Below are positions 37,714 through 41,287 of a stretch of 64,000 nucleotides of DNA, piece after piece. The notes under the pieces were generated by a model. It was not told where the DNA came from. It saw only the letters and a list, made by a program, of their open reading frames with translations, and ran no database searches. The stretch is from Natrononativus amylolyticus (lineage in GTDB: Archaea; Halobacteriota; Halobacteria; Halobacteriales; Natrialbaceae), in assembly GCF_024362525.1 (NCBI RefSeq), contig NZ_CP101458.1, positions 1,736,001-1,800,000 on the forward strand, in the 5' to 3' direction. The position numbers and the translations under genes were made by a program. The stretch's first letter is position 1; each line of letters starts with the position of its first letter.

Positions 37714-38189
37714 GTAACGTTAGCACCTAACTGTTCTGCGACCTCGTGGAGGTGCACGAAGCGAATGTTCGAGAGCCGGTCCAGCGACGTGTCCTCGAGG
37801 ACTTCTGCTTCGACGGCTTCGCCGTCTCCGTCTCGCTGGCTCGCAGAGCCAGCGCCCCCCTCGTACGGATTGCCGACGTAGACGCGGACGTTCTCGAGCG
37901 CCTCGCGGCCGCGAGGCTTCTTGTACGGGAGCATCCCGCGAACGGACCGCTTGAAGATCGTGTCCGGTCGCTTCGGGTAGTACGGGCCGCGGTCGGAGCC
38001 GAGTTCGAGTCGCTTGCGGTACGTTCCGAACACGTCCTCCCTGTCGCCGGTGATGACGGCGTCTTCGGCGTTGACGATGGCGACGCGCTCGCCGTCTAAG
38101 GCGCGCTGGGCGACCTCGCTTGCGACGCGGCCGAGGATGCAATCGCGGGCGTCGACGACGATGTCGGCGTCGAACTCTGCGACGCTCAT
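37707..38189 (-). CDS. rpl13: Ribosomal protein L13 with in-frame insertion
   Basis: 160 residues, about 15 more than the haloarchaeal L13 I remember from Haloarcula. [35 protein letters not shown] and [16 protein letters not shown] are conserved. The extra residues ([18 protein letters not shown]) lie between VYVGNPYE and EVLEDTSL, on the solvent side of the protein, and are encoded by DNA holding two perfect hairpins at 37812-37826 and 37834-37854. It is an early-assembling large-subunit protein. It overlaps L18e by 4 nt (ATGA). Confidence 0.95.
37812..37854. repeat. Two adjacent perfect hairpins inside rpl13
   Basis: GACGGC-TTC-GCCGTC (6-bp stem) at 37812-37826 and CGCTGGCTC-GCA-GAGCCAGCG (9-bp stem) at 37834-37854. 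Both fall within the insertion specific to this L13. Coding DNA seldom holds a 9-bp stem with a 3-nt loop by chance, so a small palindromic element inserted in frame is possible. Confidence 0.6.
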
Positions 38190-38539
38190 GCGATCACCCG
38201 GACGTCTGCGCCCTCTGGGTTCTGTTCGAGCAGTTGCTCGAGCGGTACGGTCTCGCCGACCTGGTCGATTTTCGTCTGGGCCGACGACGAGAAGTCGACG
38301 GCAGCGACGGTGACGTTCTTCTGCAGTGCGCCCGAACCCAGCACCTTGCCGGGAACGACCACTGTCTCTTCTTCGCGTGCGTACCGTTCGATCCGCCCCA
38401 GGTTCACCTCTGCGTGGCTTGCGCGGGGCTTCTCGAGCCGGTCCGCAACGTCTCGCCAGACGTCGGCGTCCGCGCTGCGGGACGTCGACTTCAGCTCGGC
38501 GATGAGATCGTTGAGCCGTGGATTAGTCTTGCTACTCAT
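38186..38539 (-). CDS. rpl18e: Ribosomal protein L18e
   Basis: 117 residues from ATG 38539, preceded by a GGAGGA ribosome binding site; the longer frame to 38635 enters the tRNA-like relic. [24 protein letters not shown] and [22 protein letters not shown] mark L18e (related to bacterial L15). It is the first protein gene of the S9 operon after tRNA-Leu. Confidence 0.96.
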
Positions 38540-38610: not shown

Positions 38611-38696
38611 ATGCAGGGAGCAGGATTTGAACCACCGGAAGACGGTCGGCCTCGCTAGCGCTCGACCGCTACGACTCCCGTAGCTCAAACCTGCAG
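38611..38696 (-). repeat. tRNA-Leu-like relic between tRNA-Leu and rpl18e
   Basis: The 23 nt at 38611-38633 are identical to the 3' end of tRNA-Leu at 38737-38759, including the discriminator. Upstream of it on the minus strand the sequence does not match tRNA-Leu but still starts GCAGG, which pairs with the 3' CCTGC. Inside are GCTAC/GTAGC (7-nt loop) and CGGTCG/CGACCG stems. The unit is ~83 nt, the size of a tRNA, but the T stem is broken and no usable anticodon is present. It may be a decayed tRNA copy, an integration scar or a processing signal. Confidence 0.6.
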
Positions 38697-38737
38697 TTAC
38701 ATTTTCGCGGCTCTCCCGTTCGGTCGAGCCGGAACAA

Positions 38738-38822
38738 TGCAGGGAGCAGGATTTGAACCTGCGGACTCCTACGAGACAGCGCCCTGAACGCTGCGCCGTT
38801 GGCCTGACTTGGCTATCCCTGC
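38738..38822 (-). tRNA. tRNA-Leu (anticodon CAG)
   Basis: 85 nt with acceptor GCAGGGA/TCCCTGC, anticodon stem CAGCG/CGCTG and loop TTCAGGG, so anticodon CAG reads CUG. A long variable arm (type II) and T arm GCAGG-TTCAAAT-CCTGC are present, discriminator A, no encoded CCA. It opens the S9 ribosomal operon; co-transcription of tRNA-Leu with this operon was shown in Haloarcula marismortui. A TATA box lies 28 nt upstream. Its 3' end is repeated 126 nt downstream. Confidence 0.96.
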
Positions 38823-41204: not shown

Positions 41205-41287
41205 CGTCGTGGCGGGGATTCGAACCCCGGAGGCTTGACGCCACATGGTTAGCAACCATGCGCCTTGGGCCGCTTGGCTACCACGAC
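41205..41287 (-). tRNA. tRNA-Ser (anticodon GCT)
   Basis: 83 nt. Acceptor GTCGTGG/CCACGAC, anticodon stem CATGG/CCATG with loop TTGCTAA, so anticodon GCT reads AGC and AGU. Long variable arm as expected for Ser, T arm CGGGG-TTCGAAT-CCCCG, discriminator G, no CCA encoded and no intron. It lies 77 nt upstream of rps13 on the same strand, so it probably leads the S13-S4-S11-Rpo3 transcript. Minus-strand CTTAAGTA near 41366-41373 could be the promoter. Confidence 0.95.

Follow-up and report, generated by a model that had tools for sequence, protein, structure and literature searches.

What is the 126-nt segment that lies between tRNA-Leu(CAG) and rpl18e in Natrononativus amylolyticus, and how did it come to end in a second copy of the tRNA's own 3' end? 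The window, meaning the whole 64,000-nt stretch of DNA that was analysed, carries on its minus strand, in this order, tRNA-Leu(CAG) as the anchor of the array (38822-38738; ARAGORN; Rfam RF00005, 47.7 bits), the 126-nt unit, and the leader of rpl18e (38186-38539), which has its start codon at 38539(-) and, as the next gene downstream, lies outside the element. An initial annotation of this DNA had reported a 23-nt exact copy of the tRNA-Leu 3' end 126 nt downstream of the gene, and this copy is real: GGTTCAAATCCTGCTCCCTGCA, the last 22 nt of the tRNA, recurs there exactly, together with the T that follows it, and the excess of own-tail copies behind tRNAs (see below) rules out chance.

Anatomy and distribution of the tRNA-Leu(CAG) unit

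The whole unit occupies 38612-38737(-) and follows the order T(tRNA)-h-T'-c-T, its parts being assigned from the sequence and, for h, T' and c, also from the predicted fold. T0 comprises tRNA positions T54-N73, from the T-loop to the discriminator (TTCAAATCCTGCTCCCTGCA, 38738-38757). It is followed on the same strand by the h module (38696-38737), consisting of a T-rich start and a first hairpin with a GA/GA internal loop (CCGGCTC-GA-CCGAACGG-GA-GAGCCG); by T' (38684-38695), an inverted copy of the tRNA tail that has eroded to TGCAGGTTTGAG (expected TGCAGGGAGCAGGATTTGAA); by the c module (38632-38683), which is the core hairpin CTACGGGAGTCGTAGC...GACCGTCTTCCGGTGG; and by T1 (38612-38631), a direct copy of the tail matching at 20/20 positions (22-23 nt including flanking bases). 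The extent of ~83 nt originally assigned to the element was too short, taking in only T'-c-T1 and overlooking the first hairpin (38697-38737). The region 38611-38700 has a predicted fold of -44.1 kcal/mol versus -29.7 ± 3.3 for shuffled sequences (z = -4.33; 0/200 shuffles as good). The retained fold and the GCAGG start proposed for it both stand (the start reads TGCAGG), while the proposed outer helix with two internal stems gives way to one long imperfect hairpin, in which the copied tRNA tail forms the 3' arm and its eroded inverted counterpart the 5' arm.

A decayed tandem tRNA-Leu gene, one of the origins first suggested, is excluded for practical purposes. Tail identity and tRNA size would fit it at this one locus only, whereas the fold is a hairpin and not a cloverleaf, the same h and c modules stand behind many unrelated tRNAs, and a covariance-model scan of the region with Rfam returned the real tRNA alone above threshold, the unit matching neither a tRNA nor any other model even at E <= 10.

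Among 81 tRNA-Leu(CAG) loci in relatives, the unit is full in 14 (window included) and partial in 4, the rest being clean sites. A clean empty site is seen on comparing Natrinema mahii (L018) with N. thermotolerans (L020), which have a common flank and differ by the unit plus one tail copy, and a tree of the rpl18e region gives at least 14 gains or losses of the unit. The h hairpin of the tRNA-Leu(CAG) unit also occurs in Natrialbaceae and Halobellus relatives, and since the same h is found in both, the unit at this locus looks old, and either T x T deletion would have removed it repeatedly or lateral exchange would have spread it; the h/c pair shared by the two likewise looks to argue against a fresh insertion here. 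Alignment of this interval had been proposed as the place to look for compensatory changes; the unit is present in some of the 81 relatives and cleanly absent in most, and such changes are seen across 106 units of the family. A link to the separation of the tRNA from ribosomal mRNA, also part of the first reading, is not supported, since most relatives lack the unit here and most copies lie behind tRNAs elsewhere. A functional element specific to the single locus between tRNA and rpl18e is ruled out by the genome-wide census.

A family of structured units in Halobacteria

In the census, a 16-nt tail was required to recur with <=2 mismatches and <=400 nt from its tRNA. An own-tail copy was found within 400 nt downstream of 21/43 and 22/45 tRNAs of the source genome in two census runs, against 5/1718 and 6/1874 tests with the tails of other tRNAs; own-tail copies were absent from the interval 500-900 nt downstream, and the opposite strand gave 0-1. 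Four more genomes from two families gave own-tail copies at 15/29 (G043), 15/28 (G100), 12/30 (G049) and 17/30 (G078) tRNAs, with 0.2-0.5% in controls using other tRNAs' tails. The units of the family are ~85-160 nt long and non-coding, and a blastn-type search of the source genome returned a second version that is specific to tRNA-Ser(TGA).

Several tRNAs show particular arrangements. At tRNA-Ala(ggc) (L093, L211, L241) there is a second class of unit, which duplicates just the final ~13-14 nt of the tRNA around different hairpins (CTTCTTTCGCTTCGTT...GGGTTTGCTCA). Behind tRNA-Pro(cgg) (L126, source genome C1:1155392-1155639) lie two almost identical 122-nt tandem units, and a GGAGCGAAGCGACGAG hairpin is nested as an insert in their h. 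tRNA-Ser(GCT) (window 41205-41287), which immediately precedes rps13 within the same run of ribosomal genes, has no unit behind it, and none was found behind this tRNA in G043, G049 or G078.

A covariance model, R1, built from 13 units of the source genome, matches 142/145 Halobacteria genomes and 57/58 genera, often with 10 to >=25 copies per genome; the genomes lacking any match are G014, G018 and G128. The element that was first taken for a single relic is therefore one member of a pan-haloarchaeal family. In a phylum-wide sample at E <= 1e-4, R1 matched 50 Halobacteria genomes and 0 of about 240 non-Halobacteria genomes, and the family is thus restricted to Halobacteria among the genomes searched. 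R1 also matched 26/26 named genomes, among them Haloferax elongans (16 copies), larsenii (18), massiliensis (11), denitrificans (10), gibbonsii (8) and sulfurifontis (8). For the best 30 R1 loci of the named genomes, 27/30 lie downstream of a same-strand tRNA, with own-tail copies in 27/27. Searches with exact core patterns found no copies in IMG/VR viral contigs, and blastn with one unit found none in plasmid and phage records; this lack of copies counts against a mobile family. An apparent island in G056, between paired matches 14.5 kb apart, was set aside as a coincidence involving two different tRNAs.

The common fold is supported by an alignment of 106 distinct units, in which 90.4% of pair cells hold standard pairs versus 74.9% after shuffling; fitting to R1 biases this percentage toward the model, and the contrasts with slid and shuffled controls remain large. 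Double-sided changes number 417 versus a shuffled mean of 124 and at most 96 in slid controls, and the covariation score is 0.458 versus <=0.087 with the partners slid. These counts and alignment A2 use natural sequences only, and in alignment A1 the Met row had an internal hairpin insert cut out. The fold is a property of the tRNA-sense strand: among the 2x2 internal loops predicted in h, 106 are GA/GA and none is TC/TC, and h is predicted to be more stable as sense than as antisense in 86/114 unique h modules. Since ordinary palindrome correction would remove the GA/GA mismatches, the sense strand is probably used in folded form, as RNA or as ssDNA. A reading of the tandem GA hairpins as candidate K-turns or k-loops (L7Ae) is plausible.

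This strand-specific, covarying fold is also what speaks for the main rival to a mobile origin, namely a functional structured RNA, in which h-T'-c-T would share a transcript with the tRNA and be freed by tRNase Z cuts behind the two discriminators, perhaps with RNase P acting before T'. The predicted cleavage at both N73 positions is possible, as each unit begins and ends where tRNase Z would cut (after N73), and Haloferax has established examples of tRNA-like elements that RNase P and tRNase Z process (PMC4946936). We nevertheless regard such an RNA as unlikely, and view with similar reserve the roles that it might have as a small RNA, trailer or protein-binding RNA (through the tandem G.A hairpins) with its fold kept by selection. 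Presence, copy number and module type vary freely among congeners at the same tRNA, clean losses are common, distal tails decay, and an RNA would have no need for identity with the acceptor strand of that particular tRNA.

Module exchange, array dynamics and proposed routes of entry

Both T and T' derive from the adjacent tRNA. In a specificity test anchored at the T-loop complement, T' arms were complementary to the T-stem of their own tRNA at 3.27 of 5 positions versus 2.36 for other tRNAs (p = 3e-15), and the acceptor part gave a weak yet significant own-tRNA match (p = 5e-5). Because c borders both T' and T at position 54 and h borders them at position 73, the arrays can be written as T-(h-T'-c-T)n. 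Within this grammar, h and c modules recombine independently: 8 pairs of units have the same h with different c and 24 pairs the same c with different h, including identical h with unrelated c within one array (Thr-cgt in G100, Asp in G043) and identical c with different h (Asn, G049/G078). The nearest core is at another tRNA in 50/66 comparable units, one core is exactly identical at 4 tRNAs of the source genome, and its tRNA-Trp unit (L127, C1:551471-551571) has the core in reversed orientation between T' and T. About 7 kb from L127 stands another Trp-like unit (L128, source genome C1:544319-544427), the downstream flank of which is similar, and the pair suggests an insertion or duplication in between.

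Arrays contain 1-4 units, and at the same tRNA in congeneric species the presence, number and module type of the units differ, sometimes despite nearly identical upstream DNA, as in the Gly-gcc array, which differs between congeners at an upstream similarity of 0.93. Among 39 arrays with at least two copies, the distal tail is the more diverged in 20 and the proximal tail in 0 (p = 1.9e-6). Shared units can also be shifted by one position, unit 2 of Gly(gcc) in G049 corresponding to unit 1 in its congener G078 (similarity 1.0). The shift and the distal divergence together fit addition at the tRNA-proximal end; alternatively, they could result from loss of the proximal unit and gene conversion of the proximal tail.

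R1 matches away from tRNAs are units split from their own tRNA by insertions, measuring ~20 kb at tRNA-Tyr, 8 kb at tRNA-Ala(cgc), 7 kb at tRNA-Trp and 2.7 kb at tRNA-Met. The first two encode tyrosine recombinases, with Phage_integrase/SAM domains in L267 and L269: the ~20-kb element behind tRNA-Tyr (L266-L267, source genome C1:2291381-2311136) near its distal end (L267:10024-11073), and the ~8-kb insertion behind tRNA-Ala(cgc) (L269, source genome C1:2466218-2474534) as a Phage_integrase protein (L269:650-1681). Several tail copies are found at the far end of L269. At the other end of the tRNA-Tyr insertion from its tRNA, the junction (attR, L129) is a bare ~14-nt tail copy (GGGGAGGGCGGAC) with no h, T' or c, and a pre-existing unit with the tRNA-Tyr tail lies just outside; since the insertion's own bare junction precedes this unit, the unit is not the att site of that insertion. 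The early suggestion of a scar left by an integrated element thus keeps its idea of an inserted element, but a simple scar of a large element is unlikely, because the large integrase-bearing insertions here sit between tRNA and unit and the tRNA-Tyr junction is hairpin-less.

The same observations bear on a broader proposal, that tyrosine-integrase elements (SNJ2-like and others) gave rise to the units, either as solo att scars or as miniature satellites, i.e. cargo-less attL/attR pairs mobilised by resident integrases. The direct repeat of the tRNA 3' end and the integrase-bearing insertions at the same tRNAs (L267, L269) are in keeping with it, as is the status of the T-loop and 3' end as known archaeal att regions (PMC8371274), and partial tRNAs stand beside full ones in Hfx. 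gibbonsii (PMC7921747). We consider it quite unlikely, given the bare tRNA-Tyr junction with the unit outside it; moreover, no report was found of att sites of this kind that have conserved hairpins or an inverted tail, and integrase exchange cannot itself yield tRNA-specific T' arms at >20 tRNAs. Very little credence is given to a further proposal, in which the units are host-made decoy attachment sites that divert integrating elements from the tRNA, or templates for repair of its 3' end. Additional exact tail copies behind many tRNAs would serve such a purpose, and several large insertions do lie between tRNA and unit, but the tRNA-Tyr insertion went into the tRNA end and not into the decoy, the distal copies decay, and the hairpins and T' are left unexplained.

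The reading that we favour, and consider reasonably probable, is that of a haloarchaea-specific family of non-coding, tRNA-3'-end-anchored modules, T-(h-T'-c-T)n, which are inserted with duplication of T and reshuffled by recombination. The combination of direct and inverted copies of the tRNA's own end points to insertion machinery. Units would enter at the tRNA 3' end, probably at the tRNA-proximal end of the array and by active mobility, with T being duplicated. A putative recombinase or transposase acting in trans would probably recognise the hairpins of the sense strand and drive entry, with strand exchange presumably at the T-loop (TTCRAAT). Of the possible enzyme classes, a T-loop recombinase would be the most economical choice, as TTCRAAT occurs almost universally and belongs to the att regions known from archaea (PMC8371274). 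Arrays might then grow and reshuffle via recombination at T and T', and shrink through T x T deletion, by which the bare tRNA would be restored.

An ordinary integrase would not readily produce T' arms matched to >20 tRNAs, so that correction of imperfect palindromes or a copying mechanism is needed in addition, and hairpin-primed copying would account for T' directly. Carried further, this leads to a more speculative and on balance doubtful proposal, in which a dedicated, still active haloarchaeal writing system adds hairpin-capped units at tRNA genes, copying the local 20-nt end in both inverted and direct form, for example by hairpin-primed snap-back synthesis or by joining of hairpin-capped staggered ends. 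If true, such a system would produce ordered tRNA-specific arrays, and would represent a new form of array growth outside CRISPR, integrons and transposition by known enzymes.

Significance and relation to known systems

Hairpin units behind about half of the tRNA genes in nearly all sampled haloarchaea apparently form an undescribed family. No description of such tRNA-anchored arrays was found in open-licence PMC, where the search covered main texts only and the novelty is accordingly provisional. The closest report concerns Haloferax gibbonsii LR2-5, in which 11 partial tRNAs were noted, several directly beside a full copy (PMC7921747). Some of these 'tRNA remnants' are probably hairpin units, although the main text of that paper treats them as remnants only and mentions no hairpins or inverted tail, nor any array grammar, exchange of modules or family. 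A structured, multi-copy element thus seems to have gone unrecognised under the label 'tRNA remnants'. If it is mobile, an entire archaeal class would have a new mechanism of mobility or array writing at its most conserved genes; if an RNA, it would be a class-wide RNA family absent from Rfam. Either reading bears on tRNA 3' ends as integration hot spots and on the annotation of archaeal partial tRNAs, and the Haloferax species with 8-18 R1 copies belong to a genus with good genetics.

Two known systems share features of the tRNA context. In Methanopyrus kandleri, a palindromic motif likewise lies behind about half of the tRNA genes (~10 bp downstream; PMC5217627), but it is a short single motif with no tail copy, reported only there. 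The Haloferax t-element is also a haloarchaeal tRNA-like structure and is cut by RNase P and tRNase Z (PMC4946936), but it is an engineered processing cassette in that study, whereas the units are a repeated array family with tail-specific arms, known from sequence.

Among mobile elements, archaeal tyrosine-recombinase elements (SNJ2/pleolipovirus, PMC8371274) resemble the units in the direct repeat of the tRNA 3' end, restoration of the tRNA, the clean empty site and the T-loop/3'-end target. They differ in their size of kilobases, their integrase gene, and their lack of conserved hairpins and inverted tail; no integrase gene lies between the repeats of the units, which at ~85-160 nt are too short to encode one. 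The Haloquadratum PATEs and SMRs (PMC3119063), which are non-autonomous and IS200/IS605-like or orphan, are similarly short and non-coding, with strong palindromes and described repeat-mediated deletion. PATE/IS200-IS605 systems are characterised by strand-specific terminal palindromes recognised by TnpA; the units carry sense-strand imperfect hairpins. However, the descriptions of PATEs and SMRs mention no attachment to tRNA 3' ends, SMRs are said to cause no target duplication, and neither has host-derived inverted and direct copies of the target, whereas a 20-nt target copy flanks each unit, contrary to duplication-free PATE/IS200-IS605 insertion. Casposons, which have TIRs, Cas1/PolB cargo and a 1-27 nt TSD, do not correspond to ~100-nt units that lack cargo and have T54/N73 borders without casposon-type TIRs. 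Integron attC cassettes have G^TTRRRY/RYYYAAC boxes and come with an IntI gene; in the units the boxes read GTTCRAA/TTYGAAC, not GTTRRRY.

With CRISPR arrays, the unit arrays share the alternation of repeats and intervals, an anchor at one end and decayed distal repeats. CRISPR arrays consist of identical direct repeats and unique spacers, and the units are set apart from them by T and T' repeats that derive from the tRNA and alternate in orientation, and by intervals that are recurrent hairpin modules.
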